Shown in pieces: positions 109 through 27,554 of a DNA stretch of 64,000 nt. Position 1 is the stretch's first letter, and every line of letters starts with the position of its first letter. A program made the position numbers and the translations under genes. Where the stretch lies: assembly GCA_030430205.1 (NCBI GenBank), contig JAUIGE010000017.1:1-64000 (forward strand), in the 5' to 3' direction. The stretch is from Bacteroidia bacterium (lineage in GTDB: Bacteria; Bacteroidota; Bacteroidia; J057). The notes under the pieces are model-generated. The model worked only from the letters and a program-made list of their open reading frames with translations, made no database searches and was not told where the DNA came from.

Positions 109-1029
109 CGGCGTTCCTTACTTAAACCAGTTAATGATTTTTTACACCATAGAGGGGAGCTTCTGTTTCTTACCTATTTCAAATTTACTCAGCTTTGGGA
201 GGACTTGATTGCCCAAAATAAGGTATTCGATCTGCTTGTGATAGAAGAAGCTTCTCAGGCTTTTTTGGCTTCCATTGCCTTGTTTTCGTCTGTTGCGAAG
301 AAAGTGCTTGTTATTGGAGACCACAAGCAATTGATGCCCATTGTCATGAATCGGGACGAGGCTAAAGATATCCATATACATATTGATGGCATCATAGATG
401 GTCTCAAAACATTTGCCTTTAACCACAACCCGATTTCCTACAGACTAACCAGGACCAGAAGACTAACAGCTGCCTCGGCTGCGCTTACAGGCTTATATTA
501 TGAGGGACAATTGGCTTCAATTTCTGATATCGCTGAAAACATGTATGCGGTGCCCAAATATGGAGATCTCTTCCATGATAAGGGAGGTATAACCAAGGCC
601 TTGTTGCCCCCTTCCAGAAGAGGTTTTACAGAGAAAAGGCTAATGGAAATTCTTTGTGAGATCGCGGCAGATATATTGTCCATCAATAAAAAGGTGGAAG
701 TCGCCCTCCTTTCCCCATTGATTAGGGTTGAATCTGCGCTATATGAAGCTTGCAACCAGAGAGGAGTAGACTCCTCCAGGCTAACGATTAGCACGATTCA
801 TAAAATCCAGGGATTAACAACGGATTATACCATTTTGTACTTACCGCTTTCGAATCCTTCTTTTGAGGCAGATGATAATTTATTTAATGTAGCTACAAGT
901 AGAGCAAAAAGGGGTACCTTAATTGTCTCATACAGCAGTATTCATTTACTTAGCTCTGCCTCAATAGAATTTCAAGCGTTTCTCTCAAAATGTGAGGACG
1001 TAACCGAGCAGTTTAATCACTATCTTTAA
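109..1029 (+). pseudogene. C-terminal remnant of a DNA2/Upf1-like SF1 helicase
   Basis: Only the second half of a superfamily 1 (Upf1/DNA2-like) helicase is seen. The frame carries a Walker B-like motif (VIEEASQA), motif III (GDHKQLMPI), and late motifs V-VI (TIHKIQG and NVATSRAKRG), so the RecA2 part is well preserved. No Walker A lysine loop is present. The same frame is closed by a TGA at 106-108, and the first possible start after it is a TTG at 205; helicase-like sequence seems to continue upstream of that TTG. Upstream of the stop the frame reads a CPNCH zinc-ribbon-like stretch. It ends 13 bases before the large DruE-like helicase, suggesting one former operon. I read it as a decayed gene; alternatives are a sequencing error at 106 or a short expressed fragment. 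The part left of the window is unseen. Confidence 0.6.
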
Positions 1030-1042: not shown

Positions 1043-4000
1043 ATGCTTTCCCTCCACCAGGCTATAGAAATCCAGGCATCCATCATCGCCTACCTGAAAG
1101 CCACCTTTGGCTTTCAGGATAAAAAAGTAGAAAAGGCGTTTGACGCCTTTATCCACGATCCGCAGGAGGGCCTGTTCAAAGGGCCTTACTTATCCCTTCA
1201 GCCCGGCTTTGTCAAGGTAGATGAAGCTACGCAGGCAGCGGTTCCCCTTGACATCAAGCCGGATTGGCGCGCCTATGATCACCAGATCAAGACCTGGCAG
1301 CGATTGAGCACGCATGATCAGGAACCCCAGCCTACGCTGATCACCACAGGTACAGGTTCCGGTAAGACGGAATCTTTCCTCTTTCCGATGCTGGATTACT
1401 GCTACCGGCAGCAGCATCGCCCGGGCATCAAGGTGATCATCCTCTATCCCATGAATGCCCTGGCCAGTGACCAGGCCAAGCGCCTGGCGGAAGCCATAGA
1501 CGAAGATGCACGCCTGAAAGGGAAGATCACGGCAGGTCTCTTTATCGGCGAAGGCAAAAACGAAACCAAATACCCCAAATCCATGGGGCCGGATCATATC
1601 ATCGAAAACCGGGAGTCCATCCTGGCCTCCCCACCAGACATCCTGCTCACCAACTTCAAAATGTTGGATTATGGGCTGATGAAGCACAATTACCATGATT
1701 TGTGGGCGTATAATCTGCAGGACACCGGCCTGCTCCGCTTTCTGGTGCTGGACGAGCTCCATACCTACGATGGGGCCCAGGGGACAGATGTCGCCAACCT
1801 GATTCGCCGATTGAAGCTGAAGTTGAATCTGCCCGCAGGGCAATTGTGTCCGGTAGGTACTTCGGCGACCATAGGCTCAGGAGAAGAAGCGCCTGTGCTC
1901 CTGGCGGAATATGGCTCGCGTATCTTTGGGGAAAGCATTTCGCCGGAAGCCATCATCACGGAAAACCGTATCAGTCCGGAAGCCTTTTTTGGCCTGGATG
2001 AGGAGCTTGATCCATTTATCCCACGTGCCATGCGTCTGAAAGACAGCATGCTGCGCAAGGATGAAGCCTTTGAAGATTTTATCCAGCGACAGGTGGACCT
2101 CTGGCAGTTAGATGCAAATGAGCTGGCGAATGGGCTACGGAAGCAGCTGATCGTCAAGCACCTGGTACAGGTGATCAATGAGGGAACAGGTATTCACACA
2201 CTGGATGAGATTGAGCGGGAGCTTTCCCGCCTTAACCCGCGCTTTCGCGAGCTCCCCCAGTGGGACGAAAGCGAACAATTCGCTCCCCGGCGGGCCTTGC
2301 TGGAGTCGCTTTATGCGTTGGTCTCCATCGCAAAAGAAAATGACGGCAGAGACTCGCCCTTTCTCTTTGCCCGCACCCAACTTTGGATCCGCGAGTTGAG
2401 CGGTCTGCTTCGGGTATTTGGGCATGAGCCCCAGTTTATCTGGCGTGACCTGGCAGAGAAGCAGGAGACAAAGGCCCTGCCGCCCTGGTTTTGCCGCGAA
2501 TGCGGCGCAACGGGCTGGCTGGCTGTCAAGCAGGACAACCGGGAGCAGTTTGAGCAGGATATCAATGACCTGTACCAAAAGTTCTTCAGCAATAACAAGA
2601 ACCTGTATTTTGTTTCTGCCTTTGCGGACTTCAACCCCCAGGATTTGAAGCTTTCCGGCTATGAACATACTGATATGGTGCATGAATTTGTGGATCAGCA
2701 CAATTTGCTCTTTCACGATGAAAGCGACCCGGAAAGGATAGAAGTCATGGCTGTTCGCAAACTGGATTCCAAAAACAGGAATGACCATGTTTGTCCGGCT
2801 TGCAATACGCGTAATACGGTCTCCATCATCGGTACCCGCATCGCTACCCTCAGCTCCATTGCGATGAGCCAAACGCTGGCGACAGACCTGGATATGCAGG
2901 ATGAAAGGGAGCGAAAGGTATTGGCTTTTACCAATTCTGTGCAGGATGCCGCCCATCAGGCGGGCTTTGTGGAAGCAAGAAATTATCGTTTTACCCTGCG
3001 CTCCTCCCTGCAGCAGGTGATCAATGCGCAGGAAGGTCCGCTCTCCCTTTCCGAACTGGCAGAGCAATTTAAAGCCCACTGGAAAACGCGCGCCGATGAG
3101 TCAGGTCAGCAATCGCTGCCAGCCTATTTTTACCGCTTTTTTCCCAAGGACTATATCGGAAAGGCATCTCCGGCTGATTATGCGGAAAAAGAAAGGTATG
3201 AAACGCACTTTCAAAAGGAATTTGATATGCGGGTGGATTGGGAGATTTTTGCCGAATTTGGCTATGATTCCCTCATTGGCCGTACGCTGGAAAAGACAGG
3301 TAGCTCGGCGGCTTATTTCCAGCCGGAAGCCCTTGCCCGGACCTGGGCACTGGCAGAGGATTGGCTACAGGTCCATGACCCGGCCAGGAAGGTAGATCGT
3401 GCTGACTTTGAGCGTTTTCTGTTGCTGATGCTACATCGTGTGCGGGTACGTGGCGCGGTTTCCCATCCTTTCCTGGAAAAATTTCGCAGCCAGGACCTCA
3501 AGCTTTGGGACCTCAACTGGATTAGCGATACCCGCCACTTCCTGAACAAGCGCTTTGGACCAAGAACCCGCCTCCCCAAACTGCTGACCAGCCAGGTCGA
3601 AAATCGGGGCCTGCTGGACAGTACCTTTGCCAGGACAACCAATTGGTTTCATAGTTATTTCAAGAAATGCTTTGAAATGGCCAATGACAAGGTTGACTTT
3701 ATCAATGAGTTTTATGCCATGCTCCTGCCTGCCATGGAAGCCTCAGGCCTCCTCGATAAGCGGCAGACGCTTGATCTTGTCAATTATGCCTTGCGACCCG
3801 CCAGTATATTCGTCGGCAAGGAAGTGCATGCGCTGAGCTGTAAGCGCTGTGGGCATGAAGTCCACGGAGGAGCGCCTGTTCAGCAGGCGGCAGGTGGGCA
3901 TTGCCTGAATTATCGTTGCCAGGGAACCTATGAGCTGCAGGCGCAGCCTGAAGAAAATTATTATCAGGCGGTGTACAACCGCAAGCGGGCGCCGCGTATC

Positions 4001-7000
4001 TATGCGAAGGATCATACGGGCCTGCTGGACCGTCAGGTCCGGGAAGAACTGGAAGACGACTTCAAGTACAGACCCAAATTCAATTCCACCAATGCCATGG
4101 TTGCGACCAGTACGCTGGAGATGGGAATTGATATCGGGACGCTGAATGCGGTTTATAACAATTCTGTGCCGCCCTTGCCATCCAATTTTTTGCAAAGGAT
4201 CGGGCGGGCAGGCCGGAAGAGTGGTTCTGCCTTTGTGATCAATTTTGCACAAAATAAGGCCCATGACCTCTTTTATTTCCAGGGGCCTTATGACATGATG
4301 GCCGGGGAAGTGGCTACGCCGGGCTGCTTTCTGGAAGCGAAGGAGATTCTGCGGCGGCATTTCTTTGCCTATTGCATCGACTCCTGGACGAGTTTGGCAC
4401 CTAAAAAGCATCACCTCCCCGTGCAGTTGCGTTCGCTCAAACTGGAAACGCTTGATCTGCAGGATGCATCATTTTTTATGAATCGCCTGCTGAACTATAT
4501 CAAGCTGAATGAGGAGGCCCTCTTTTCCCGTTTCCGTGGGCAATATGTAGGCGAAGTGAAGGAAGAGGTGTTTGCTGAACTTCAATATCAGCTTGATAGC
4601 GAGCAGTTTTATGAGGACTATAAGGCGATTTTTAAGCGCATCAAGCAGGAAATCGCGAATATTCGTCAAAAGCAGCAGGAGACCGTGGATATGATCAAGA
4701 CCCTCAAACTGGGCAAGGAAGATCCCGAACGGCTGGAGATGGAAAGAGAAAGGAAAAACCTGGGAGGCATCATCAAAAGCATACGCGATCGCCATACGCT
4801 GGAGCATCTCACCAATGTCGGCGCCCTACCCAACTATGCCTTTCCTGAAACAGGGGTCACCCTGAGCGCAAGGGTACTCGGAACGCAGGCAGAGGGGAGT
4901 ACGCATGATCCCATGCAAAAGGATTTTGAGATGGTACGGGCTGCTTCCCAGGCGCTGAGGGAGTTTGCGCCGGATAATTATTTTTATTCACAGGGCTTTC
5001 GCTTCCAGGCATCTGGCATCAACACCTATGACTGGGCAGATAACAGTGTTTTCCATAGCAAACGCTTTTGCTCGCAGTGTGATCATATCGAGATCAACAG
5101 CCTGGCAGCAAAAGGAAATTGTCCCAAATGTGGACATGAATCCTGGGGCGCTTCCTCCAATGTGCATGAATTTGCGAAACTGTTGACAGTCAAATCCTTC
5201 AATAACCAGGCTAAGGCGGCCTTGAATGACAGCAAAGATGAACGGGAGGCATTGATATATCATAGATTGCGTCACTTCAAATTTGATCCCAGCCGATCCC
5301 GGGGTGCCTGGGCCCTGGTGGAAATCCCTTTTGGGATTGAATTTGTGAAAAGTGTCACCATTCTGGAAAGCAACCTGGGCCGCTCAGACGTCACGGACGC
5401 CCGCAAACTGCAGATCAATGAGTTGGAAGTGCCTGTGCATGGTTTTATCACCTGCAGGCATTGTGGCAAATCTTCCTCTCACATTAACCAATATGAGTAT
5501 AAGCAGCACTTTGGCTATTGCAAACACAAAAACGAGGAATATAAAGGGAAAAGCGATGCGGTATTTAAGGAGGTATTCTTCTTCCGGGAAATGACTACCG
5601 AGGCTCTCAAAGTGCTGCTGCCTGTACAGGAACTGGACAGTGAGGCCAAGGTAAAGATGTTTAAAGCAGGCATTGAACGCGGACTAAAAGATTTCTACAA
5701 AGGAAATCCGCAGCACATAGAAATTGCCGAATACAAGGAATACAATCACAAATCCATGCGATTTGACCGCTACCTGGTTCTTTTTGACAAAGTGCCGGGA
5801 GGGACAGGCTATTTGGAGCAGCTATTTGATCGGAGCGAGTTTACCAAACTGATGAAGCAGGCTTATGAGAGCATCCGGGATTGTAGCTGCCAGCATGAAG
5901 GCAAGGATGGCTGCTATCGCTGCATCTATTCCTATGGCAATCAATATTACCATGCGGACCTTAGCCGGGCAGAGGCAGAAAAATCTTTTCGGGCCATCGT
6001 TGAAAAGTCAGAGACCTGGGAACGACAAAGCGAAGGCCTTTCTCAGATCGCTGCCACAGGTAGAATTGAAGAATCAGAGCTGGAAGAGCGATTTATCAGG
6101 AGCTTATCTAAATTTGCCTCGAAAGAAGCGCAGTGGAAATTTCAGGAAAAAAATGAGGATGGGACGGTCAGTTATTCCCTAAGCTATCGAAGTCCGTTGA
6201 CTCAGGTTTCCTACCATATCCGTCCTCAGGTAGAGTTGGGTCGAGTGGATGGTATTGCCTATTATACCCGTTCCGATTTTCTGATTGTCTGTACAGAAGC
6301 AACCCTGGATGGACAAAATTATCAGGATACCATTCCCAGCATAGCTGTCTACCTGGACGGTTATCAGTTTCATGCTTCCACTGAAAACAACCGTTTTTTC
6401 AACGACTTCCAAAAACGGCAGGCCATCAATGCCCATGATGGCTACCATAGCTGGACACTGACCTGGGATGATCTGGAAAAATTTGACCAGCGCTTTCTGG
6501 ATGCCAAAGAACAAAAAGACAGAAAAGACTTTTTGCGTTTGCTGCTGGAGGAAGAAGGCTATAAAGACAGTAGAAAACAGCTGCTCAACATGAGTAAGGG
6601 AAAAACCATGGACATAGGCCATGCGCCCAATAACCTGGAGCGTCTGTTGCTCCTGTTGCAGTACCCTTTCCGGGATAAACAGATGAAAGCCAGTTGGAAT
6701 CTGTTTTTGGCGACCTATCAGCCATCCTTATTTCGTCCCTCTTTCCCTCCGCAGGAAATGGAAAAAGCATTTGATTATTCCGTTCAGGAGGGAAGTTTTT
6801 GTCTTCAGCAAAAAACGCTGGATGGATGGCTTCGGGTGCAGGCCTTGCCTGCCTGTGAGTTGTTCGTTTGGCGAACGATTGCCAATATTCAGCAGCACGA
6901 GGTTGCCAGTAGACTGTTACTCAGGCGAATAGATGAGATCCCAAAAGCGGGTTGGAATCAGTTTTGGCTCTACTACAACCTGATTCAATTCTTTCCGCTG

Positions 7001-7318
7001 GAAGAAGTGGAAACCTTTGACCTGCTGCCGGAAATGGAGTTGGATATGGTTAATATGGAAGGTTTGGAAGATTTTATTGATCTGTTTGAACCTGCTTATG
7101 CAGATTTGATCCGACAGCTTTTCCAAAAAGGCCTGGTTCGCTCAGAAGATGAAGATGCCCTTAGTATTTTATTGGATGAAAAAGGAGGAGAATTAGCCAC
7201 AGCAGAACTCATCATTCCTCACTTACAGCTCGCCTTTGAACCCCACGATCCCGCTGCTTTTCAAAAAGCAGGATATACCATCTTAACCCAGGACCAGATT
7301 AAAGAAATAAACTTATGA
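1043..7318 (+). CDS. Large DEAD/DEAH helicase with DUF1998 region and Vsr-like tail (DruE-like)
   Basis: A 2,091-residue SF2 helicase. The N-terminal RecA lobe has Walker A GTGSGKT (about residue 102), motif Ia YPMNALASDQ, Walker B DELH (about 235) and a SAT motif (GTSAT). Cys pairs interrupt the core (FCRECG, VCPACN, SCKRCG). The second lobe has STLEMGIDIG and QRIGRAGR (about 1053). Further zinc-ribbon pairs follow (FCSQC, CPKCG, CRHCG), then the DUF1998/MZB-type cluster CSC...CYRC near 1613-1628. The last 350 residues contain YLDGYQFHAS, KRQAI and SWTLTWDDL, resembling Vsr/DUF559-type PD-(D/E)XK tails. Size and order resemble DruE of Druantia anti-phage systems (known family); no other recognisable Druantia gene is beside it. 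Its stop overlaps the next start by ATGA, so the two are probably translationally coupled. The helicase call is firm; a defence role is inferred. Confidence 0.88.
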   Translation: MLSLHQAIEIQASIIAYLKATFGFQDKKVEKAFDAFIHDPQEGLFKGPYLSLQPGFVKVDEATQAAVPLDIKPDWRAYDHQIKTWQRLSTHDQEPQPTLITTGTGSGKTESFLFPMLDYCYRQQHRPGIKVIILYPMNALASDQAKRLAEAIDEDARLKGKITAGLFIGEGKNETKYPKSMGPDHIIENRESILASPPDILLTNFKMLDYGLMKHNYHDLWAYNLQDTGLLRFLVLDELHTYDGAQGTDVANLIRRLKLKLNLPAGQLCPVGTSATIGSGEEAPVLLAEYGSRIFGESISPEAIITENRISPEAFFGLDEELDPFIPRAMRLKDSMLRKDEAFEDFIQRQVDLWQLDANELANGLRKQLIVKHLVQVINEGTGIHTLDEIERELSRLNPRFRELPQWDESEQFAPRRALLESLYALVSIAKENDGRDSPFLFARTQLWIRELSGLLRVFGHEPQFIWRDLAEKQETKALPPWFCRECGATGWLAVKQDNREQFEQDINDLYQKFFSNNKNLYFVSAFADFNPQDLKLSGYEHTDMVHEFVDQHNLLFHDESDPERIEVMAVRKLDSKNRNDHVCPACNTRNTVSIIGTRIATLSSIAMSQTLATDLDMQDERERKVLAFTNSVQDAAHQAGFVEARNYRFTLRSSLQQVINAQEGPLSLSELAEQFKAHWKTRADESGQQSLPAYFYRFFPKDYIGKASPADYAEKERYETHFQKEFDMRVDWEIFAEFGYDSLIGRTLEKTGSSAAYFQPEALARTWALAEDWLQVHDPARKVDRADFERFLLLMLHRVRVRGAVSHPFLEKFRSQDLKLWDLNWISDTRHFLNKRFGPRTRLPKLLTSQVENRGLLDSTFARTTNWFHSYFKKCFEMANDKVDFINEFYAMLLPAMEASGLLDKRQTLDLVNYALRPASIFVGKEVHALSCKRCGHEVHGGAPVQQAAGGHCLNYRCQGTYELQAQPEENYYQAVYNRKRAPRIYAKDHTGLLDRQVREELEDDFKYRPKFNSTNAMVATSTLEMGIDIGTLNAVYNNSVPPLPSNFLQRIGRAGRKSGSAFVINFAQNKAHDLFYFQGPYDMMAGEVATPGCFLEAKEILRRHFFAYCIDSWTSLAPKKHHLPVQLRSLKLETLDLQDASFFMNRLLNYIKLNEEALFSRFRGQYVGEVKEEVFAELQYQLDSEQFYEDYKAIFKRIKQEIANIRQKQQETVDMIKTLKLGKEDPERLEMERERKNLGGIIKSIRDRHTLEHLTNVGALPNYAFPETGVTLSARVLGTQAEGSTHDPMQKDFEMVRAASQALREFAPDNYFYSQGFRFQASGINTYDWADNSVFHSKRFCSQCDHIEINSLAAKGNCPKCGHESWGASSNVHEFAKLLTVKSFNNQAKAALNDSKDEREALIYHRLRHFKFDPSRSRGAWALVEIPFGIEFVKSVTILESNLGRSDVTDARKLQINELEVPVHGFITCRHCGKSSSHINQYEYKQHFGYCKHKNEEYKGKSDAVFKEVFFFREMTTEALKVLLPVQELDSEAKVKMFKAGIERGLKDFYKGNPQHIEIAEYKEYNHKSMRFDRYLVLFDKVPGGTGYLEQLFDRSEFTKLMKQAYESIRDCSCQHEGKDGCYRCIYSYGNQYYHADLSRAEAEKSFRAIVEKSETWERQSEGLSQIAATGRIEESELEERFIRSLSKFASKEAQWKFQEKNEDGTVSYSLSYRSPLTQVSYHIRPQVELGRVDGIAYYTRSDFLIVCTEATLDGQNYQDTIPSIAVYLDGYQFHASTENNRFFNDFQKRQAINAHDGYHSWTLTWDDLEKFDQRFLDAKEQKDRKDFLRLLLEEEGYKDSRKQLLNMSKGKTMDIGHAPNNLERLLLLLQYPFRDKQMKASWNLFLATYQPSLFRPSFPPQEMEKAFDYSVQEGSFCLQQKTLDGWLRVQALPACELFVWRTIANIQQHEVASRLLLRRIDEIPKAGWNQFWLYYNLIQFFPLEEVETFDLLPEMELDMVNMEGLEDFIDLFEPAYADLIRQLFQKGLVRSEDEDALSILLDEKGGELATAELIIPHLQLAFEPHDPAAFQKAGYTILTQDQIKEINL

Positions 7319-9420
7319 AACTCTTCATTTACGATAAATTCTGGGATGCTTTTATTGACCTGAATAAAACTACCCAAAAGAAAGTCCTGGACTTTCAAAA
7401 GAAATTTCGGGAGAACTCGAAATCTGCTGCTATTCACCTGGAACCCATCTCGACCTTTAGGGATCAGAGCCTGCGTACAGCACGGATTGATCAAAAATAC
7501 CGTGCAATCGTCAAAGTGCCAGAGACAGGAAGTGCCTACTACCTGCTTTGGGTGGATAACCACGATGAAGCCATGGATTGGGCGCGCGATAAGATGTTTG
7601 AGTGGAATGAAACAACGCAATCTATTCAGGTTTTTACTGTCCCGGATGAAGCAGTGCTTCCTTCAGCATCCGATAAGGCCCCGGTGCCAAAGCCTGCAGT
7701 TACTCAGGGCTTGGGAAAATACACCCTGGAACAGCTCAAGGGACTGGGCGTACCTGAAATCCTGCTCCCCTCTGTGCAAAAGGTCAGCAGTTTGGACCAA
7801 TTGGAAAAAATGCAGGCCTACCTTCCTGAAGCCGTATTTGAAAATTTATTCTATCTGATGGATGGTGCGCAGATTGATTTGCTGCTACACGAAGTAAAAG
7901 AAGGGACCATCAATTCTGATAATCCGGATGAGACGGCAGAAAGTGCCAACAACCGACGTAGTTTTGTGGAGTTGACCGATGACGATATGTTCAATGAGGT
8001 GCTTTCCGGCAGTCTTGACAAATGGAAGTACTATCTACATCCCTCCCAGCGAAAATTGGTTAATGGCCATTTTCAGGGTCCGACCAAAGTTACAGGCGGA
8101 GCCGGTACCGGAAAAACCGTAGCTGCCCTGCATCGCCTGAAAGTACTTGCCGGGCAGGCAAGTGTGGATCAGCCGGTGCTCTTTACCACCTTTACCAAAG
8201 CCCTGACAAAAAACCTGATTGCGCTAGCCAATGGCCTGAAAGTTCCTACAGAGCGGGTCCGAATCGTCCATATTGATCTGCTGGTTTTTGAATTGGCGAA
8301 AGAATATGAAATCATTTCTGATCAGGCGAAAATATTTGGGTTTGCCGGAGTAAAAAAAGCCTCCGATGTGTGGGAGGAAATACTGGAAGAAACCCTGGTT
8401 ACCTATGATCGGGACTTTTTGGAAAAAGAATATGAGCAGGTCATCTTATACCATAACATCGGGGACCGATCTGATTATCTGCGGATCGCCCGGTTAGGGC
8501 GGGGCAAAGCCATCTCCCGCCGCCAGCGCGCCGAACTCTGGAAGGTATTCGAATTATTCAAAGCACGGGCAAAGCAATACGATTGCTTTTACAAAGAGGA
8601 AGTATTCAACCAGGTAACGGACCACTTCACCCAGAACGAAATACACCCTTTTTCAGCTGCCGTGGTAGACGAGTTACAAGACATGTCAAATGTGGAACTG
8701 CGCTTTATTCGCTCACTGGTTACAGAAAAACCCAATGACTTGTTTTTAGTTGGAGATCCGCTCCAAACCATTTATGCCAAACGCATCAACTTCACCAAGG
8801 CAGGCATCAATGTCAGAGGCAAGCGCAGTCTAAGACTTCGAATCAACTACCGCACCACAGAAGAAATCAAGAAACTGGCAGTCTCTATCATTGAGGATTG
8901 TCATTATGACAACTTTGATGGGGAAGAGGAAGAGAAAAATGGGTATGTATCGCTTTTCCATGGACAGAAACCCAGTTATCAGTTGTTTAAAACCAAAGCG
9001 GACGAAGTAGATGCTGTCCTAAGCAGGATAGAAAAACTGATTGAAGCTGGAATTGATTATCCTGAAATCGCGATCGCATCCCGTTCAAGAAGTGGCCTGA
9101 AAGACTTCACCGATGCCTTACACAAGCAAAACCTTCCCTATTATGAGATGCATTCCGGCAAAGCAGTGGGCCAGAAAAATGGGATTCATCTCTTCACCCT
9201 GCATAGCATTAAGGGCCTGGAATTTAAGCATGTTTTTTTGGTAGATGTGAATAACAGGACAGCGCCCAAGCAATTTACCGGCTTCGATGACATGGATGCA
9301 GAAAGCAAAGCGATGTATCTACGTGCAGAAAAGTCGCTGATGTATGTGGCAGCTTCGCGGGCCATTGAGGGATTGTGTATTTCGGGGGTGGGGCAGGCTT
9401 CGGAGGTGGTGCGGGTGTGA
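7315..9420 (+). CDS. UvrD-like SF1 helicase with N-terminal RelE/ParE-like domain
   Basis: A 701-residue protein. Residues 1-110 resemble a RelE/ParE mRNA interferase or gyrase-toxin fold: basic helices, then RTARIDQKYRAIV and the YYLLWVDNHDEAMDWA strand-helix end typical of this fold. After a linker, a complete SF1A helicase follows: Walker A GGAGTGKT (about 264), Walker B VVDELQD (about 451), motif III VGDPLQTIYA, motif IV LRINYRT, motif V LHSIKGLEF and motif VI YVAASRA. The ATG overlaps the stop of the DruE-like gene by four bases. No antitoxin gene is adjacent, so the toxin-like domain may act as a ribosome- or DNA-gyrase-sensing module rather than a free toxin (inference). The gene ends nine bases before a GC-rich palindrome where the convergent viperin gene breaks off. 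Confidence 0.85.
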   Translation: MKLFIYDKFWDAFIDLNKTTQKKVLDFQKKFRENSKSAAIHLEPISTFRDQSLRTARIDQKYRAIVKVPETGSAYYLLWVDNHDEAMDWARDKMFEWNETTQSIQVFTVPDEAVLPSASDKAPVPKPAVTQGLGKYTLEQLKGLGVPEILLPSVQKVSSLDQLEKMQAYLPEAVFENLFYLMDGAQIDLLLHEVKEGTINSDNPDETAESANNRRSFVELTDDDMFNEVLSGSLDKWKYYLHPSQRKLVNGHFQGPTKVTGGAGTGKTVAALHRLKVLAGQASVDQPVLFTTFTKALTKNLIALANGLKVPTERVRIVHIDLLVFELAKEYEIISDQAKIFGFAGVKKASDVWEEILEETLVTYDRDFLEKEYEQVILYHNIGDRSDYLRIARLGRGKAISRRQRAELWKVFELFKARAKQYDCFYKEEVFNQVTDHFTQNEIHPFSAAVVDELQDMSNVELRFIRSLVTEKPNDLFLVGDPLQTIYAKRINFTKAGINVRGKRSLRLRINYRTTEEIKKLAVSIIEDCHYDNFDGEEEEKNGYVSLFHGQKPSYQLFKTKADEVDAVLSRIEKLIEAGIDYPEIAIASRSRSGLKDFTDALHKQNLPYYEMHSGKAVGQKNGIHLFTLHSIKGLEFKHVFLVDVNNRTAPKQFTGFDDMDAESKAMYLRAEKSLMYVAASRAIEGLCISGVGQASEVVRV

Positions 9421-9423: not shown

Positions 9424-9921
9424 TTATAGGGGGCTGGAAACCAGCCCCCGCCGAAAACGCATATCCTTGATCTGTTGGATCAATTGCCGGTAATGGCTTT
9501 CATCCATCACTTGTTTTTTGCCAACAGCATACCTGCCCGTTTTTTGGTTGATTTCAGGGTTCAGGCTGTCGATACTGAGGCAAAGCCAATCCAGCGAAGC
9601 CTGAAACTGCTTCATGTACTGTGGCGTCAGCTTGCTGCCATTGGTAACCAACATGGTAATAAGGCCAAGCCGCTTAGCTTCTTTAATCAAATCCGCTAGC
9701 CAGGGACAGAGGGTAGGTTCTCCACCAACAAAGGTGATCTTCTGGAAGCCATAGGCTGCCAGTTGGCGCACAACCTCGAGGGCATCTTCCTTAGGTAGAT
9801 GTCCTTTGGGTAGCACAGAGGCTTTCACATCCTGAAAGCGGGCGAAGCAGAAGCCGCAACGCATGTTGCAGGGTTCCCAGAGGTGGAAATTGACGGCGGG
9901 GATTGATGGTTTGTTTTGCAT
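9424..9921 (-). CDS. Prokaryotic viperin (radical SAM), C-terminally truncated
   Basis: A 165-residue radical SAM protein. The cluster-binding motif CNMRCGFC is at Cys18, Cys22 and Cys25, preceded by VNFHLWEP; then FVGGEPTL (the SAM-binding GGEP), LVTNGS, and SIDSLN...TGR, which matches the viperin-specific CDS/IGR region. Viperins make 3'-deoxy-3',4'-didehydro nucleotides that terminate viral RNA synthesis; bacterial pVips defend against phages (established). Known pVips are about 290 or more residues, so roughly the C-terminal half, including later barrel strands and nucleotide contacts, is missing. Similarity stops at QQIKDM; the last 11 residues are coded by a palindrome and flanking sequence. 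It is probably inactive. The nuclease-TPR gene is 57 bases upstream on the same strand. QueE and other radical SAM enzymes were considered, but the flanking motifs fit viperin better. Confidence 0.8.
   Translation of the reverse strand: MQNKPSIPAVNFHLWEPCNMRCGFCFARFQDVKASVLPKGHLPKEDALEVVRQLAAYGFQKITFVGGEPTLCPWLADLIKEAKRLGLITMLVTNGSKLTPQYMKQFQASLDWLCLSIDSLNPEINQKTGRYAVGKKQVMDESHYRQLIQQIKDMRFRRGLVSSPL
9429..9449. repeat. Perfect GC-rich palindrome at the helicase/viperin junction
   Basis: Nine-base arms GGGGGCTGG and CCAGCCCCC flank an AAA loop. It lies between the two convergent genes, just after the UvrD stop (9420), and encodes the last residues of the truncated viperin. It could be a bidirectional terminator, although no T-run follows on either strand, or a REP-like or recombination scar. 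Because viperin similarity stops at its edge, a breakpoint is plausible. Confidence 0.7.
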
Positions 9922-9936
9922 AATTACATGGATTAA

Positions 9937-9956
9937 TAGGTTACCCCGCAGGGTAG
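9937..9956 (-). promoter_or_regulatory. Imperfect palindrome upstream of viperin
   Basis: On the minus strand this 20-mer begins CTACC and has GGTAAC near its end, giving arms CTACCC/GGGGTA(G-like) around TGC. It ends 15 bases before the viperin ATG and agrees at 16 of 20 positions with the box before the nuclease-TPR gene (13083-13102). A shared operator or 5'-leader hairpin is the likely role. The regulator is unknown. Confidence 0.55.
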
Positions 9957-13205: not shown

Positions 13206-13826
13206 GTGTCTAAGAAGATTAGAGCAGCTCAACCTACTTTTGAAAGAAAAATCCCCATGAAACCCAAAACCGGTAAAGAACCCTTCCACCAGCAAGCCCA
13301 ACCTCTGTCATTTACCCTCCTGGACTTCTGGGCCTGGTCCCAGTCTGATCTGACGAATAATACCCTGAGGGGCATTATTGCTGAGTTCATCGTCATGAAG
13401 GCCCTGGGCATATCACAGCCCTTCCGGATAGAATGGGACGCCTACGATTTAATAACAGAGACCGGGCTAAAGATTGAAGTCAAATCAGCTGCATACCTAC
13501 AAAGTTGGCACCAGGAAAAACTTTCGAAAATATCCTTCGGCATAGCACCCACTATTGCATGGGATGCTAAGACAAATACATACGCTACGCAAAAAAAGCG
13601 ATGGGCAGATTGTTACATTTTTTGCTTGTTACACCATCAAGACAAGTCGAACATCGATCCCTTAAATATGGACCAATGGACTTTTTATGTGTTGCCGACC
13701 GCAATATTGGATAAGGAAAAACCTAATCAGGGCACAATTACATTGGGAGTATTACAGAAACTTCAGCCTATTCAATGTCGGTTTGAGAAACTAAAGACTG
13801 TTATTCAGGAATTATCAAGAAGCTGA
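13206..13826 (+). CDS. Small protein with ExK nuclease-like motif
   Basis: A 206-residue soluble protein. The core reads LRGIIAEFIVMKALG, then WDAYDLITETGLKIEVKSAAYLQSW; a conserved Asp followed 13 residues later by E-V-K fits a PD-(D/E)XK nuclease active site, with an N-terminal helix carrying Glu. Later IDPLNMDQWTFYVLPT is a conserved-looking strand. Two starts are possible: GTG at 13206, or ATG at 13257, which removes a basic 17-residue tail. It is divergent from the nuclease-TPR/viperin pair and shares its 130-base intergenic region. I do not know a named family; a standalone defence or repair nuclease is an inference from the motif and its neighbours. Confidence 0.65.
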   Translation: MSKKIRAAQPTFERKIPMKPKTGKEPFHQQAQPLSFTLLDFWAWSQSDLTNNTLRGIIAEFIVMKALGISQPFRIEWDAYDLITETGLKIEVKSAAYLQSWHQEKLSKISFGIAPTIAWDAKTNTYATQKKRWADCYIFCLLHHQDKSNIDPLNMDQWTFYVLPTAILDKEKPNQGTITLGVLQKLQPIQCRFEKLKTVIQELSRS

Positions 13827-13873: not shown

Positions 13874-16744
13874 TTAAACTCCCCTCATCCTTTCCTTTCT
13901 CTTAGAATAAGTCAGCCCAAACCCAATCCCCCCACCAACAAGCAACAGCCCTACGACCCACCACCAACTCCCCCCCGCCACAATCGCCCCATCATCTCCA
14001 ATCACCACAAAACCCGCCCAATAATAAGGATGCAAAGCCGCATTGGAGGCCGTCTCCAGGTACTGCTGCTTCGCAGCACGCAAAGCTTCCGATTTGGAAG
14101 CACCCTCCTCCAGCGCCGCATAAAACCCCTGCATCAGCTCAATCGTCGCCTGTCCATCCGCCTTCCAGAGGCTGCTCACCACGCTGGGACAGCCCGCGTA
14201 GCGAAAAGCCCGGGCGAGGCTGTAGATGCCCTCGCTTTGTTCGAGCTTGCCATAGCCGCTTTCGCATGCGGCGAGCACAGCCATTTTGGCGTTGAGGTTG
14301 AGGTTATAGATCTCGTAGGCGTAGAGGGAGTTGGCGGCGGCGGTGTCATCACCGGCGAAAAGCAGCCTCGCCCGCAGGGGAGAGTACAGATCGGGTTCGC
14401 CATGCATGGCGAGGTGCAGGACACTGAAGTCGGGTGCGGCTTCCAAAAAACGTGCTTTGTTGACCTGCTCGCCGGTAAAGGCCGTGCCTCCCATCATCGC
14501 GGCGACGGCTTTCGCCTGGGGTTGGTTGTGGACGAGAGACCAGGGGCCGCTATAGGCCGGGGCGAAGGCGGCGACTTCGTTTCTGCGCGCCCTGGGGCGG
14601 TAGGGATTGCTGAACAGCAAGGTCGCCGAGTAGGCATAGCGCGTGCTGGTCTCGCGGAAAAAATAGGGGAGATGGCGGTATTGGCGGTCCGCCTGCCGGT
14701 CATCCAGCGATGACAAATCGGGGCTGCTGCGCAGCAGCAACTCAAAGGGCAGATAGCTCAGCTGCCCATCGGGAATAAGGATCAGCTGGTCGGGGCTTTT
14801 CTCCCCAATCAGCGGCTGCAGGAAGCGGGCAAACAACTGATGGGCAGGCCGTGCAAAAGCCGTTAGTCCCTTCAGGCCCTTTTGCGGCTGTTGCAGGGAG
14901 CTGAGGAGCTGCCGGATCTGCTTGTCCAGCAGGCTATCCCGGGGAACTTCATGTACCATGATCCCCTGCCGGTCGATCGCAAATGCATAGACCGCGCTAT
15001 CCCCCTCAAAAAACGCCAGCAGCATCTGCGAGCCGGAGAGTTGCTGCTGAATTTCTGCCACCTCCACAATCCTGTGGTCATACTTCAATTGATGGTATGC
15101 GGGATAGCGCTTTTCCAGCGATTCGCTGAAGCTGCGATATGCCTCTTCTCTGTCAAAGAGAATCTGTCGCCAGCTTGTCAGGCGGGCGCTGTCTGCTGCG
15201 GTTTGCTTTTGCTCCGCTTCGAATATTTTATTTTGGTAGAAGGCGATGTCTACCTTGAGGTTGCGCTCCTGTTCGAGCAGGCTGTCGGGGAGGCCGGCGG
15301 CGAGTTTGGCGCCTGCGTCTTGGAGGGATTGGAATAATAAGGTCGCCTTATTTCGCTCGCTGAAGGAGAAGGCCTTTTCGAGGTATTGTGGCTCGCCTGT
15401 TTTTGCATGCATCATCAGACAGAAGCGGATGGCGCGCTCGTAGATGGGGCGGGATTTTTGGGAGAAGAAGAGCTTGGAGGATTCGTTTTGGAGGCGGTCG
15501 CGGGCTTTGTCAACCAGCGAATCCGCAATAAGATAGCACCAGAGGGCGGTGTCGAGGTCGGGTTGTTGTTGGGTTTGGTGGTAGCGGCCGATGTGGGCCT
15601 GGGCTTTGCCGTCGAGGATGGGGACGGCGAGGAGGGGGTAGGGGGTGGTGGGGGATTGGGGGGTGAGGGTGAGTTTTTTGAGGGCGGATTGGTAGGTTTG
15701 TAGAGCGGAGTCGGGATGGTTGAGGAGGAGGTAGGTGGAGGCGAGAGTCTGATATGCATCCATTAGAAAGTTAATGCTTTCATTTCCTGTGTACTCTTTT
15801 TCCCTCAATGCTACTGATATTTTGAAGTCTCTAAGTGCTTTTTCTGTGGAATCAACAAGTAGATAATATTCTCCTTTGATTTGGTGAAGTACTCTGGGAC
15901 GATAACCGGGTTTGATTTTGGGGAGTTTTTCTATTGCATTGATAAGGATTTTTGCGCTGTCGGGTTGGGCTGTTTTGATGTAGATGAAGGCTAGGGTGTG
16001 GAGGCAGTCGTATTCGTGTCTTGTTCCTTTTCCCTTCAAATCGGATGACTCAATAATAGCCAGATTTTTCAAAAAAAGTGATTTCGCATGAAAATAATCT
16101 TGAGCGAAAAATAAAGCAGCAGCTAAATTATTGATTTTCAACTGCGTTTGGGGTGCATTTAAACCATAACTACTCATTGAAAGAGTAATTGCTTTTGTTC
16201 CTATATTTTTGGCATCTTCATAGTTTCCAATTCTCAAATAATAAGAACTTAAAGAACTGTAAGTATTAGCAAAACTCTTTAAATACTCAATTGTATCCTC
16301 TGGAGCAGTAATTGACTTAATTATTTTTAATGACTCATTTGTATAGTCTAAAGCTTTTTGATAGTTGCCCATTCTTGAGTAAAAAATGCCAAGATTTAAT
16401 GCAGATGATGCGCAATATCCTGGTATTTCTGCTAGATAATTAGTTTTCATTGAGTATGCATAAAATCTGAATTTTTCTTCTTCCTCAATATTATTTAATT
16501 TTTGATAAGCGGTTGCAATCCCTTGGTAACAAAGGTTGTATCTTGCTAAATTACATTGGTCAAAGTACTCTTTCGATGCTACTTTTAGAATACTAATAGC
16601 TGAGTCTGGTTTAGAAGAAAGGATTTTTACGGCATTCCAAAAAATAGAATCTGTAGCAACTCCAGTATCTCCAATATTTTGACTATTAATAGGAAGGATA
16701 AATCCTATATTAATAATCAGGAATACGATAATATTTATTTTCAT
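13874..16744 (-). CDS. Membrane-anchored TPR-CHAT caspase-like protein
   Basis: About 956 residues starting at ATG 16744. A longer reading from 16786 is rejected because it would run through a 15-bp terminator hairpin. Order: signal peptide (MKINIIVFLIINIGFILPINSQ), TPR repeats to about residue 420 (for example ALNLGIFYSRMGNYQKALDYT), a helical linker, and a C-terminal CHAT domain. The caspase-type dyad is visible: His about 779 in LHLAMHGEPD and Cys about 825 in LAACESGYG, followed by SVVSSLWKAD and HPYYWAGFVVIGD. A Trp/Gly-rich membrane helix and a basic tail end the protein, suggesting a C-terminal anchor with the protease outside the cytoplasm. The CHAT region (about 14.0-15.7 kb) is clearly more GC-rich than the TPR part. 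Partner substrates are unknown. Confidence 0.85.
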   Translation of the reverse strand: MKINIIVFLIINIGFILPINSQNIGDTGVATDSIFWNAVKILSSKPDSAISILKVASKEYFDQCNLARYNLCYQGIATAYQKLNNIEEEEKFRFYAYSMKTNYLAEIPGYCASSALNLGIFYSRMGNYQKALDYTNESLKIIKSITAPEDTIEYLKSFANTYSSLSSYYLRIGNYEDAKNIGTKAITLSMSSYGLNAPQTQLKINNLAAALFFAQDYFHAKSLFLKNLAIIESSDLKGKGTRHEYDCLHTLAFIYIKTAQPDSAKILINAIEKLPKIKPGYRPRVLHQIKGEYYLLVDSTEKALRDFKISVALREKEYTGNESINFLMDAYQTLASTYLLLNHPDSALQTYQSALKKLTLTPQSPTTPYPLLAVPILDGKAQAHIGRYHQTQQQPDLDTALWCYLIADSLVDKARDRLQNESSKLFFSQKSRPIYERAIRFCLMMHAKTGEPQYLEKAFSFSERNKATLLFQSLQDAGAKLAAGLPDSLLEQERNLKVDIAFYQNKIFEAEQKQTAADSARLTSWRQILFDREEAYRSFSESLEKRYPAYHQLKYDHRIVEVAEIQQQLSGSQMLLAFFEGDSAVYAFAIDRQGIMVHEVPRDSLLDKQIRQLLSSLQQPQKGLKGLTAFARPAHQLFARFLQPLIGEKSPDQLILIPDGQLSYLPFELLLRSSPDLSSLDDRQADRQYRHLPYFFRETSTRYAYSATLLFSNPYRPRARRNEVAAFAPAYSGPWSLVHNQPQAKAVAAMMGGTAFTGEQVNKARFLEAAPDFSVLHLAMHGEPDLYSPLRARLLFAGDDTAAANSLYAYEIYNLNLNAKMAVLAACESGYGKLEQSEGIYSLARAFRYAGCPSVVSSLWKADGQATIELMQGFYAALEEGASKSEALRAAKQQYLETASNAALHPYYWAGFVVIGDDGAIVAGGSWWWVVGLLLVGGGIGFGLTYSKRKERMRGV

Positions 16745-16752
16745 AATAAATG

Positions 16753-16789
16753 AAAGTGATCCCAAAGTAAGAATCTTTGGGATCACTTT
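16753..16789 (-). terminator. Hairpin terminator after the T9SS cargo gene
   Basis: A perfect 15-bp stem (16753-16767 pairs with 16775-16789) with a 7-base loop lies ten bases after the stop of the 335-residue cargo gene and nine bases before the CHAT ATG. There is no long T-run on the minus strand, but stem strength and position fit a terminator or attenuator and rule out the longer CHAT start. Confidence 0.7.
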
Positions 16790-17806: not shown

Positions 17807-18054
17807 GATTACTATTTAGTTAATTTTAAAAATATAATTTTGGTTTGAGGTTTTGAAGTACATGTACAAAGAATTCTTACATAGATGACTTTTTTAATTA
17901 AAATCAATAGCTGTTATTATCTATAAATTGAATTCATTGTTATTAGACGCATTCCCCTAGCTCCTATCAACACTTTCTCTAGAAATACTCAAAAAAAGAA
18001 TATATAGCACTAGAATTAGCCAATAAGATATTGAACAACAAGGCTTTACATATT

Positions 18055-21003
18055 ATGAAAACATTTTCTGTTTTACTTTTTCTTCTGGTCCCAAAATTAT
18101 TTTTTGCCCAAAATGAGGATGTAACATTTATATACCTCGATACAATACACTTACATAACAATGATGAATATTTTTCATTTTTATTCGACATAAAATTTCA
18201 TCATGATGGAATTAATGAAAAATATATTGTCAATGTTGTTGAATTTAAAACATTGCTATCAAGTGGTGAAGTTCAGCGATTAAAAAAAAATAAAATAAGT
18301 ATCCATGAGTATGTCTCCCAATATTCTTATATCAGCACTATGCCTCTAGAATTTGAAAATAATTTATTTGAGAAATTTCAGATAAGGAGAATTACGCCGA
18401 TATCCATTTTTTCAAAAATAATATCTGAAAAGAGTGAGAGGACAAATTATGTTATTTTGAATTGTAGCTACTTTAAAGAGTTTAAAGATGTAGAAAAAGA
18501 GCTAATTAACTTAAATGCTGAGATTTTGGAGCATAATCGAAATTACTCGGTTCTGAAAATCAAAATCCATCGGAGTAGAATAAAAGAATTGTTAGCCCTT
18601 TCTGTTATCAAGTTTGTGGAAGAATCCCATCCCCCATCAAATGAAAACCATGTTAGCAGAGGAACTCTTGGTGGTTATAGTATCTCAAATGGAATCGGGT
18701 TAATAAATAAATATGACGGAGGCGGTGTCAATTTAGCGATTAATGATTCAGATGGGATTGGAGATCACATTGATTTCTCGGGAAGGATAAAGTTTGTCAA
18801 TGACCGCGAGGATAGCCATGCTACCCACATTTCAGGTATTTTGGGTGGAGCTGGAAATTTAAATCCTCTGCATCAGGGATTTGCGAGTCAAGCAGATTTG
18901 TTTTCCTATGGAAATTCATCAGCATATGGGGATTTTCCATTCATCTATACCGAAAAAGGGATTCGAATAATTAATACATCCCAAAATGACGGCTGCAATG
19001 TATACACAACTTTGAGTAACAGGGTAGACCTAGAATCTAAAAATCTTCCCGGACTACTGTTTATTTTTTCGGCTGGAAATCAAGCTGCAAATGGATGCCC
19101 TGGCATTTCAGGAGCATGGTATTCAATTACTGGGGGTGACAAAATGGGCAAAAACGTCATCACCGTCGGAAACCTAACCTCCACCGACGAAATCAACTCC
19201 ACTTCCAGCAAAGGTCCCGCCAACGACAACCGAATAAAACCCGATATTTGCGCCATGGGAACAGGCATCGTATCCTGTGACCTGAATAACACCTATTCCA
19301 CCAAAAGCGGTACTTCCATGGCGGCGCCAGCAATCTCGGGTTTGACTGCCTTGATGATGCAAGCTTACAAAGAAACACATGGAGGGCAAGAGCCTGATGG
19401 TGGACTGATGAAAGCGATCCTCCTGAATACGGCTACCGACCTGGGCAATGAAGGGCCGGACTTTACCTACGGCTGGGGAAAAGCCAACGGCTTGAGGGCG
19501 ATTCAGGCCATAGAAGCGGACCGCTTCAGAGACAGCACGATCAGCCATGGCGAAACGCATTTGATTGATCTTGAAATTCCTGCAGGAGTAGAAAAAGCGC
19601 GCATCATGCTTTACTGGACGGATAAAGAAGGCAGCCCGATGGCTGCGAAAGCTTTGGTAAACAACCTGGATTTGAGGCTGCTTGATACAGTTGGGAACAG
19701 CTATTTGCCCTGGGCACCAGATCCGGGCCCCAATGCCACGGGTGCACAAATCGCACAGCCAGCACAGAAAGGAGTCGACACGCTCAATAATGTTGAACAG
19801 GTGGAGATCATCCGACCGCAGGCTGGGACATACCAAATTGAAATCAAAGGAACCAAAATCCCTTTTCCTCAGCAGAAATATTTCATTGTATATGAATGGA
19901 TAAAAGATGAAATAACCATTTTGTTTCCTGCCGGAAAAGAATCCTTGCTCCCTAATGAATCTCATATTATCCGATGGGATGCCCCTACAGATTCGAATGC
20001 CACATTTGATATTCATTACACCTTGGACAATGGGCGAAATTGGACACAAATAGGTGCCAATATCCCGGCTACTCAACGATATTACTTTTGGAATACGCCG
20101 CAGGCCATAAGCGGACAAGCCCGCGTCCGCGTCACCCGCGGCCCACAATCCTCCGAAAGCCAGGCCAACTTCACCCTCATCGAAACCCCCGCCAACATCC
20201 AGTTCGCCCGCGTCTGCCAGGACTTCGTCACGCTGACCTGGGACGCCGTCCCCGGCGCCACCGCCTACGACATCTTCGTCCTCGGCGAAAAGTACATGGA
20301 CTCCGTCGGCACGACGACCCACACCTTCTTCGAACCGAAGATCCGCTACCAGAACGAAAACTGGTTTTCGGTGCGGGCCCGGGGGGATAGTGGTATCGTC
20401 GGGCGACGGGCGATCGCGGTGAAGCAAGACGCAGGCATGCTGATGAGTTGTGCAGGCGTAGCGCCCACTGCCAACTTCATCCTGGATACGGTCTTGTGCG
20501 ACAGCCAGTGGGTCTTTCTGCAGGACCGGAGCGGCAAATCGCCCGACAGCTGGCAGTGGACCGTCATTCCGTCGGCAGGCGTCAGCTTTATCCAAAATAC
20601 CGCTGACAGCAGCGCGAATCCGGTGATCAGCTTTGCTGATACGGGCCGCTACCAGATCACCCTCAAGGCCATCAGCCAGTTTGGCGCCGACTCTATCACG
20701 CAGACCCTGCGTATCACATCCTGCATCACCGCCCATGCACCCGCATTTGAGCCCTTTTCCCTCCAGGTCACTCCCAACCCCAATACAGGCATTTTCCAGC
20801 TGCGGATGGAAGGGCAGTTGAGCGGGTGGTATCAGCTCGAGTTGCTTGATTTGCAGGGGAAGAAGCTGTTGGAGCGAAGCTTTCATGCGCAAGCGGAGCA
20901 GCTGGTGCAGGAAATTGATGTGCGGGAGCTAAGTGGCGGGGTCTATTTTTTGCGGGTGGGAGATGGCAGGCGGGCTGTGGTGCGGAAGTTGATTTTGCGG
21001 TAA
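18055..21003 (+). CDS. S8 subtilisin-like peptidase 1 (long form, T9SS-secreted)
   Basis: About 982 residues from ATG 18055 (signal peptide MKTFSVLLFLLVPKLFFAQ); an upstream TTG is not needed. Residues about 30-200 form an inhibitor-I9-like propeptide. The S8 domain has Asp about 231 (LAINDSDGIG), His about 255 (SHATHISGILGG), an oxyanion Asn (FSAGNQ) and Ser about 421 (SGTSMAAPA). Then follow a beta-sandwich (PIP-type convertase-like), an Fn3-like module (LTWDAVPGATAYDIFVLGE), a PKD-like module and a T9SS type A tail (TPNPNTGIFQLRM to VRKLILR). It is likely a surface protease of the Por pathway. The DNA changes from AT-rich to GC-rich near 20108, and the last 900 bases are almost the same in the other four copies. 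Substrate is unknown. Confidence 0.88.
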   Translation: MKTFSVLLFLLVPKLFFAQNEDVTFIYLDTIHLHNNDEYFSFLFDIKFHHDGINEKYIVNVVEFKTLLSSGEVQRLKKNKISIHEYVSQYSYISTMPLEFENNLFEKFQIRRITPISIFSKIISEKSERTNYVILNCSYFKEFKDVEKELINLNAEILEHNRNYSVLKIKIHRSRIKELLALSVIKFVEESHPPSNENHVSRGTLGGYSISNGIGLINKYDGGGVNLAINDSDGIGDHIDFSGRIKFVNDREDSHATHISGILGGAGNLNPLHQGFASQADLFSYGNSSAYGDFPFIYTEKGIRIINTSQNDGCNVYTTLSNRVDLESKNLPGLLFIFSAGNQAANGCPGISGAWYSITGGDKMGKNVITVGNLTSTDEINSTSSKGPANDNRIKPDICAMGTGIVSCDLNNTYSTKSGTSMAAPAISGLTALMMQAYKETHGGQEPDGGLMKAILLNTATDLGNEGPDFTYGWGKANGLRAIQAIEADRFRDSTISHGETHLIDLEIPAGVEKARIMLYWTDKEGSPMAAKALVNNLDLRLLDTVGNSYLPWAPDPGPNATGAQIAQPAQKGVDTLNNVEQVEIIRPQAGTYQIEIKGTKIPFPQQKYFIVYEWIKDEITILFPAGKESLLPNESHIIRWDAPTDSNATFDIHYTLDNGRNWTQIGANIPATQRYYFWNTPQAISGQARVRVTRGPQSSESQANFTLIETPANIQFARVCQDFVTLTWDAVPGATAYDIFVLGEKYMDSVGTTTHTFFEPKIRYQNENWFSVRARGDSGIVGRRAIAVKQDAGMLMSCAGVAPTANFILDTVLCDSQWVFLQDRSGKSPDSWQWTVIPSAGVSFIQNTADSSANPVISFADTGRYQITLKAISQFGADSITQTLRITSCITAHAPAFEPFSLQVTPNPNTGIFQLRMEGQLSGWYQLELLDLQGKKLLERSFHAQAEQLVQEIDVRELSGGVYFLRVGDGRRAVVRKLILR

Positions 21004-21077
21004 GTGGGAATGCGTTCTACTAAACTCCATAGCTGATGTAAAGCAGTTTTTTCAAGCCTGAATTCGGAGCGATTTTT
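21004..21077 (+). repeat. 3'-flank repeat copy A (after S8 gene 1)
   Basis: About 70 bases after the stop (GGGAATGCGTTCTACTAAAC onward to the T-run) are nearly the same as 26588-26662 after S8 gene 3. The duplicated or converted unit therefore reaches past the coding region. It ends in a T-run and may include the transcription terminator. Confidence 0.75.
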
Positions 21078-21111
21078 TCCTAATTTGTCCTTGTATTTTC
21101 ATGCAAGCCAA

Positions 21112-23535: not shown

Positions 23536-23605
23536 GCGGAAAATGATTATTTCCTAAATTGGTCATCTTTCAAGTCATTTTTTCAAAAAGGCTTAGGAAC
23601 AGCAG

Positions 23606-26587: not shown

Positions 26588-26662
26588 GAGGGGAATGCGT
26601 TCTACTAAACTCCATAGCTGATGTAAAGCAGTTTTTCCAAGCCTGATTCCGGAGCCAATTTT
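26588..26662 (+). repeat. 3'-flank repeat copy B (after S8 gene 3)
   Basis: This is the second copy of the roughly 70-base flank seen after S8 gene 1, with a few changes and a longer T-run at its end. Its right end touches the broken HNH gene, so the junction is a recombination scar. Confidence 0.75.
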
Positions 26663-26671
26663 TTTTTTAAA

Positions 26672-26770
26672 AGGGAAGGTATGTCTTTCGTGAATTTTAC
26701 AATATTCGCACCTGTGATCAGCCCTTTTTGCTACTTCAATTCTAACCTTTTCGGAAATATATTTACTCAT
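26672..26770 (-). pseudogene. HNH endonuclease, N-terminal remnant
   Basis: From ATG 26770 the minus strand reads MSKYISEKVRIEVAKRADHR followed by CEYCK, the usual start of a small HNH endonuclease (RA..RCEYC is the first zinc pair). Similarity stops after HERHTFPF, before the DHI active-site histidine and the second Cys pair. The open frame then runs into the S8 3'-flank repeat. It is a truncated, inactive gene. It overlaps the end of the gene above it by eight bases, the normal layout of a two-gene cassette. Confidence 0.7.
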
Positions 26771-27005
26771 AACCGCCTTGAGCTTCAGCTTTAATCTTTG
26801 CCAATCTGAATAGTCGCTCAAGGACGATAAAGTGATTTAATTCGTCTTTTTCGGCTGCTTCAATATCTTGATGTTTTTGTTTTTCAACCAAAAAGTTAAA
26901 ACGCGTTTGCATTTCGTCCGAAGGGCGAAGAGCTGCAATTTTTTTGGGTTCGAGTAAGGCGATCAGGTCTGCCACCTGGTCATATACATGATAGATCGTT
27001 TTCAT
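26763..27005 (-). CDS. Small helical protein of an HNH cassette
   Basis: An 80-residue protein (MKTIYHVYDQVADLIALLEP ... LERLFRLAKIKAEAQGGYE) that appears intact and all helical. Its stop overlaps the HNH start, and similar small helical proteins are often found before HNH genes, so it is probably the first gene of that cassette (inference). Function is unknown; an inhibitor or partner of the nuclease is possible. Since the HNH gene is broken, this may be an orphan. Confidence 0.6.
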   Translation of the reverse strand: MKTIYHVYDQVADLIALLEPKKIAALRPSDEMQTRFNFLVEKQKHQDIEAAEKDELNHFIVLERLFRLAKIKAEAQGGYE

Positions 27006-27204
27006 ACTTCACGTTAATTACATTCGTATTCCCATCAAAATGGCTCCTGAGAAATTCTGAACCCTCATTCACAGGCAAGTGATTTGGAACAAAAGCATTA
27101 TTTAAACGGGTTTTATGGTTAATGTGTTTGAAGGAACAAACGGTCGTCGAGATGCTAAAGGAGAAGCTCAAGATCCTGGAGTGGGAAAGGATCTTTGATG
27201 CCAA

Positions 27205-27380
27205 AACGATGAGCTGCTCATAGAGCTTGAGGTTATACAACTCGTAGGCATAGAGCGGAGCAGTATCCGCCGTCTCATCGCCAGCAAAAATCAAACGCGC
27301 CCGAAGTGAGGAATAAAGATCTGATTCAGCATGCATGGCCATGTGAAGGATGCGGTAATCGCCCGCCAGACTTTCAGCCT
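27205..27380 (-). pseudogene. CHAT-domain gene fragment
   Basis: The minus strand reads DYRILHMAMHAESDLYSSLR, then ARLIFAGDETAD and LYAYELYNLKLYEQLIVLA. This aligns closely with LHLAMHGEPDLYSPLRARLL and the residues after it in the intact CHAT gene at 13874-16744. The His is present but the match ends just before the catalytic Cys (ACESG). It is therefore a leftover of a second CHAT gene, cut at both ends. The coordinates are approximate breakpoints. Confidence 0.75.
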
Positions 27381-27395
27381 ATGCCTGGTTGCTGG

Positions 27396-27494: not shown

Positions 27495-27554
27495 GGTACT
27501 TTTATGGGGTTTTCCTTTCTAATTTATTGACCAAAACCATCATCAGATAAACCC

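Follow-up and report, generated by a model that had tools for sequence, protein, structure and literature searches.

Prokaryotic viperins (pVip; NCBIfam NF038283, PADLOC PDLC02903/02905) are radical-SAM proteins of about 290 residues whose N-terminal half carries a CxxxCxxC cluster motif together with the GGEP and SIDS stretches. The last barrel strands, a region of SAM contact and most of the pocket for the nucleotide belong to the C-terminal half. A review (PMC8124187) describes for viperins an active-site tyrosine that is conserved and has been proposed to act in catalysis. Upstream of viperin, pVip loci can have a nuclease-type gene, and the viperin-associated NERD protein (PDLC02906) is encoded directly before viperin. 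A further described system to which the locus can be compared is the Druantia-type DruE helicase with its UvrD partner.

The locus reported here lies in the window, i.e. the whole stretch of 64,000 nucleotides that was analysed, which forms the start of contig C6 in a draft assembly of a Bacteroidia bacterium (Table 1). Its viperin gene shares with pVip the sequence of the N-terminal half, the cluster cysteines, GGEP and SIDS, and likewise has a nuclease-type gene upstream. It differs from pVip in that the C-terminal half is missing (165 versus about 290 residues) and in a score under the NCBIfam cut-off. As in Druantia, the DruE-like gene of the window also overlaps a UvrD gene, a comparison that covers this pair of genes. 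Very probably, a NERD-viperin operon has here lost the 3' half of its viperin gene by rearrangement against a complete helicase operon, and the stump left behind would be a pseudogene.

Table 1. Features around the truncated viperin gene (positions within the window)
Feature	Position	Strand	Remark
C-terminal piece of SF1 helicase (Mko/IGHMBP2-like)	205..1029	+	near contig start
Large DruE-like SF2 helicase with MrfA Zn-binding domain	1043..7318	+	4-base overlap with UvrD gene
UvrD/SF1 helicase	7315..9420	+	C-end complete
Truncated prokaryotic viperin, 165 aa	9424..9921	-	N-half matches only
Hairpin with perfect 9-bp arms and 3-base loop	9429..9449	.	at viperin/helicase junction
Viperin-homologous part, residues 1-157	9451..9921	-	alignment with relatives
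NERD-type nuclease-related gene with C-terminal TPR repeats, 1031 aa	9979..13074	-	directly upstream of viperin stump

The viperin stump and its missing half

Against the NCBIfam model viperin_w_prok (NF038283) the stump aligns with model positions 3-151 of 281 (E 8.7e-47), its score of 159.6 bits lying below the curated cut-off of 180 and the next NCBIfam family being MoaA with 67.5 bits. The PADLOC models are likewise matched in part, pVip-kinase with 215 bits at positions 180-327 of 474 and pVip with 148 bits at positions 2-135 of 257, and the solved viperins 7n7h (E 1.2e-14) and 5vsl (E 7.2e-14) are matched as well. The cluster cysteines C18, C22 and C25 are invariant across a 23-row alignment, and GGEP (G66-P69) and SIDS (S116-S119, the SxDS region) are both present, in line with the preliminary description, which had proposed a viperin signature in the first 150 residues and whose region ends at position 9956, 35 bases upstream of the start codon of the stump. 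Within residues 6-153, at least 95% of the other rows agree in 44 columns, and the stump keeps the shared residue in every one of them; three mismatches called further on, at 159, 161 and 165, belong to a foreign tail and fall outside this count. The conserved regions of the C-terminal half, namely NTVV, RWK, QND, SYxMxDPxGRFF and RGGxY, are absent from the ORF. Judged by its sequence, the first ~157 residues of the stump are a genuine N-terminal half of a prokaryotic viperin.

Relatives were gathered by scanning genome contigs with peptide patterns of the N-terminal half, a search that is non-exhaustive yet unbiased against short forms. It matched 91 stretches, 62 of which are relatives. From the start of the match to the stop, 59 of these 62 loci span 280-477 residues, with 53 at 280-306 and six at 459-477; by eye, four of the six (L001, L010, L014, L025) carry a P-loop kinase-like extension. 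At L016 (266 residues up to the contig end) and L056 the frames leave their contigs. Among the 59 homologous frames that are complete, no short form was found. The gene thus indeed stops at about half the usual length, with 165 residues compared to at least 280 at 59 of the 62 loci, and a conserved 165-residue form, named beforehand as evidence against a break, was seen at none of the 62. A second broken viperin, which is apparently frameshifted, is present in a cyanobacterial genome (L060:8001-8479).

When the window is aligned with 59 relatives (without L016, L056 and L060; the end of homology read from the first 40 rows), homology runs through F156 and probably R157 (bases 9451-9456). Beyond this point the stump reads R-G-L-V-S-S-P-L-stop, and the relatives continue with (Y/F)-x-L-K-(I/V/L)-N, e.g. 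LKINTVV. A search profile built from 11 C-terminal halves (alignment A1) found nothing at E values up to 1 in the genome of the window (G000), an assembly of 80 contigs rated 100% complete. The same profile was positive in four of four control genomes with known viperin (E 2e-52 to 1e-68), i.e. G006 and the genomes of L011 and L031, none of which is in A1, and the genome of L021, which is. A nearby C-terminal part in another frame, which the preliminary description had named as evidence against its reading, was not found, nor was such a part found elsewhere in the assembly.

These searches bear directly on an alternative in which the helicase module inserted into the viperin gene, the C-terminal half lying past the far end of the module and beyond the start of the contig. 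The window does begin at a contig start and the helicase operon begins close to it, which places the other end of the module out of view. With the profile blank in all 80 contigs of an assembly rated complete and positive in every control, an insertion of this kind is nevertheless improbable, as it needs a C-terminal half that sits in an unassembled gap or has been lost.

At a threshold of 1e-20, no viperin was found in the one other genome of the genus, and a viperin was found in one of 12 other genomes of the family (G006; full-length frame of 295, 58% identity). Viral contigs gave no relative, and the viperin-like matches in 120 plasmid records were every one below 60% identity. In their titles and abstract openings, the literature matches listed do not report a truncated prokaryotic viperin, and one may still exist in print.

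The junction with the helicase operon and its palindrome

On the helicase side, the UvrD homolog in G163 is aligned over 1-700 of 701 residues at 51% identity. In the order, one of the 21 other genomes has a UvrD homolog at 1e-60, and in the phylum sample nine of 394 others have one at 1e-80, giving ten homologous loci (L069 from the order, L072-L080 from the phylum sample). The alignment extends to residue 693 or beyond at eight of these, to 683 at L080 and to 637 at L073, and the homologs stop 0-13 residues past the last aligned residue. A DruE-like match lies ahead of UvrD at eight of the ten loci, L069 and L074 having none within their short flanks. Since the homologs align to the end and stop there, and since the DruE-like partner recurs, the UvrD gene of the window is, by comparison with its homologs, uncut at its C-end and part of a separate module. 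The L073 homolog shows an apparent frameshift near its own C-end.

The convergent stop codons of the stump and the helicase (the latter at 9418-9420) are 3 bases apart, and 8 bases separate the helicase stop from the palindrome GGGGGCTGG-AAA-CCAGCCCCC. Homology ends near base 9451, so that similarity does cease where a perfect palindrome begins close to the end of the helicase gene, as first described. The foreign tail RGLVSSPL is encoded by the palindrome together with base 9450 and bases 9427-9428.

The palindrome had further been proposed as a special breakpoint element that might recur beside other breakpoints. A search of both strands finds it once in the window and never in the shuffles, a count that says little, any specific 21-mer being rare. 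In the genome of 7.24 Mb it is single-copy at up to 2 mismatches, and exact 8-bp arms with a loop of 1-12 are likewise found at one place. A background sample of 464 kb, made up of the window plus twenty 20-kb stretches from the same genome, holds 29 distinct perfect hairpins with arms of at least 8 and an arm GC of at least 0.75, and four with arms of at least 9 at the same GC, the palindrome included in both counts. The palindrome is thus strong but not exceptional. A repeated breakpoint element, i.e. a REP-like sequence or the end of a mobile element, was rejected since the palindrome is single-copy and comparable hairpins are scattered in the sampled genome. With nothing like it after the helicase at ten of ten homologous loci, the proposed special role is not borne out.

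Two other assignments were likewise rejected. As for a conserved terminator of the helicase operon, the 200 nt that follow each of the ten helicase homologs hold no comparable hairpin, the 7-bp one at L072 being unrelated. As for an element of viperin's own, hairpins with arms of at least 8 follow the frame at four of 59 viperin loci and none resembles the palindrome; the 59 are those with 200 nt after the frame, the frameshifted L060 being counted in and three of 62 being too short. The palindrome is missing from the output of a scan for intrinsic terminators between 6000 and 18500, and neither strand has a T run. RNA folding of 71-nt pieces of the region gave z values of -2.8 for the plus strand and -1.4 for the minus strand. 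Most likely, the palindrome either came with the junction or serves both convergent operons as a transcription stop.

Hairpins are also known sites of chimeric joins and the assembly is a draft, both of which would suit a junction created by an assembly or amplification artefact. A chimera should, however, leave the true continuation of viperin on another contig, and no viperin C-half was found anywhere in the assembly; in addition, the helicase gene ends cleanly. We consider an artefact very unlikely.

Structure and fate of the stump

An AlphaFold2 model of the stump, built with 22 relatives, reaches a mean pLDDT of 77.7. Its confident blocks hold the predicted strands 61-65, 88-93 and 112-117, and the first strand (9-13) lies in blocks of 61-64. 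A further strand is drawn at 157-162 in the foreign tail, after the fourth strand, where block 151-160 averages 73; residues 161-165 average 41, and residues 162-165 as well as the cluster-region stretches 23-28 and 31-33 fall below 50. In VIA-align, model residues 8-165 are placed on residues 74-226 only of mouse viperin (5vsl; Z 12.5, rmsd 2.9, 142 aligned). Viperins fill the first 8 rows and the radical-SAM enzyme PqqE comes close behind at Z 11.7, so that the fold alone is not viperin-specific. The alignment of a full-length relative with solved viperins covers almost the whole length and takes in the conserved RWK and SY regions, where the lysine of the nucleotide site and the tyrosine of catalysis are placed; the stump lacks both regions.

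Since the lost half carries barrel strands, SAM contact and nucleotide pocket, the stump should not be able to make ddh-nucleotides and would thus be a pseudogene. The earlier suggestion of a killed or reshaped viperin holds for the truncation as such, and the missing half makes the loss of activity probable. Conversely, the short protein might be functional, be it a half-barrel with SAM or cluster binding retained, or a protein that regulates the NERD-TPR nuclease or works together with it. Such a role would suit the complete set of conserved positions and a moderately confident model in which the palindrome-coded tail is partly drawn as a strand. With the entire C-half absent, no complete homologous frame being short, and both the end of the stump and its cluster region modelled at low pLDDT, we regard it as highly improbable. 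Chances are slimmer still that the half-viperin has been retained as a mini-protein in which the palindrome-coded tail replaces the fifth strand and which binds a cluster or partner, serving the NERD-TPR nuclease without making chain terminators.

According to the rearrangement reading, the minus strand of the region would once have held a defence operon of NERD and viperin. Viperin would then have been cut at about codon 157 by a rearrangement that left its stump facing the complete two-helicase operon, 3' end to 3' end, the palindrome-coded tail supplying a new stop after 8 residues. This event would have been a deletion or, alternatively, an insertion followed by loss; we infer it from the window, as no close relative with an un-truncated locus was found. 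The loss seems recent since the remaining viperin frame is undamaged, although an undamaged frame would equally fit a protein under selection. Most likely, this viperin, at a junction formed by rearrangement in a defence region, is dead or nearly so. Of the original proposal that two defence modules were joined here, the truncation at the junction with a complete, unrelated helicase module stands; the joining itself is a fair deduction, an un-joined relative not having been found.

The locus represents a clean example of a defence operon that has seemingly lost its effector, the partner nuclease gene being still open, and it cautions that N-half viperin matches in defence catalogues can be dead genes. 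An active stump would alter the view of what viperins require; the evidence points the opposite way.

The NERD-TPR gene and its surroundings

The gene upstream of the stump matches the viperin-associated NERD model (PDLC02906) with 49 bits (E 1e-13) at positions 405-542 of 542, a match for which PADLOC gives no cut-off, and its core matches a profile of six NERD neighbours with a probability of 97.9 (E 3.3e-13). It shares with the viperin-associated NERD proteins the position directly before viperin and the NERD core, which matches well, while the N-terminal part matches weakly; it differs from them by its long TPR tail and by the partial PADLOC match. It is thus best taken as a remote match to this model. 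At 1e-30 the gene was not found in the order (21 other genomes), nor were its first 658 residues matched at 1e-20 in the phylum sample (394 others); four plasmid records gave weak matches to the NERD part. A full-length viperin beside the same nuclease-TPR gene, as sought from the outset, was not found: the viperin of G006 is full-length, but the NERD-TPR gene was found in none of the order and phylum genomes searched.

Fourteen viperin loci have an upstream neighbour longer than 500 aa, and 11 of these proteins were scanned against PADLOC. The viperin-associated NERD model was matched by seven of the 11 (L001, L006, L009, L012, L019, L031, L037) and not by the neighbours of L002, L027, L028 and L030. 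The upstream protein of L002, which was outside the profile, is related to the NERD-neighbour profile (E 2.4e-41) and has C-terminal TPRs, placing a NERD-like TPR protein ahead of an intact viperin frame of 477 residues. L002 is an intact counterpart of the window arrangement, the two TPR-tailed proteins being only remotely alike (best E 0.034 in direct BLASTP, within the TPRs). Since NERD precedes viperin in seven of the 11 scanned neighbours and the L002 arrangement agrees, the gene order of the window would fit an inherited one.

The GC3 of the stump (0.583) exceeds that of the NERD-TPR gene (0.332) by 0.251, a difference larger than at any of the 44 loci where viperin follows a long gene on the same strand (mean 0.026, sd 0.083, maximum 0.176); the other 18 of 62 loci have no qualifying neighbour. 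Counting against the rearrangement reading, a gap of this size would equally suit a fragment that has a history of its own, and the stump and the NERD-TPR gene may have arrived separately.

A CHAT-TPR protein is encoded near the viperin operon at 13874-16786, with a 206-aa plus-strand ORF (13206-13826) in between. This ORF has no Pfam match and, taken as a marker of an empty site, was found in none of 12 other family genomes; as the NERD-TPR gene was likewise not found in the 21 genomes of the order, no empty site could be read. Five consecutive subtilase genes, each with a Por secretion C-terminal domain, occupy 18031-32580.

At 20 of the 44 viperin loci the upstream neighbour is a protein of ~250 aa with a start that by eye is response-regulator-like (e.g. 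L021:7135-7893), and all four of those scanned carry Response_reg and LytTR domains (Pfam). Two-component control of bacterial viperins may thus be common. A myxococcal viperin is preceded by a protein of ~446 aa with sigma-70 region 4 (L054:6528-7868), and genes with similar-looking starts, again judged by eye, precede several other myxococcal viperins.
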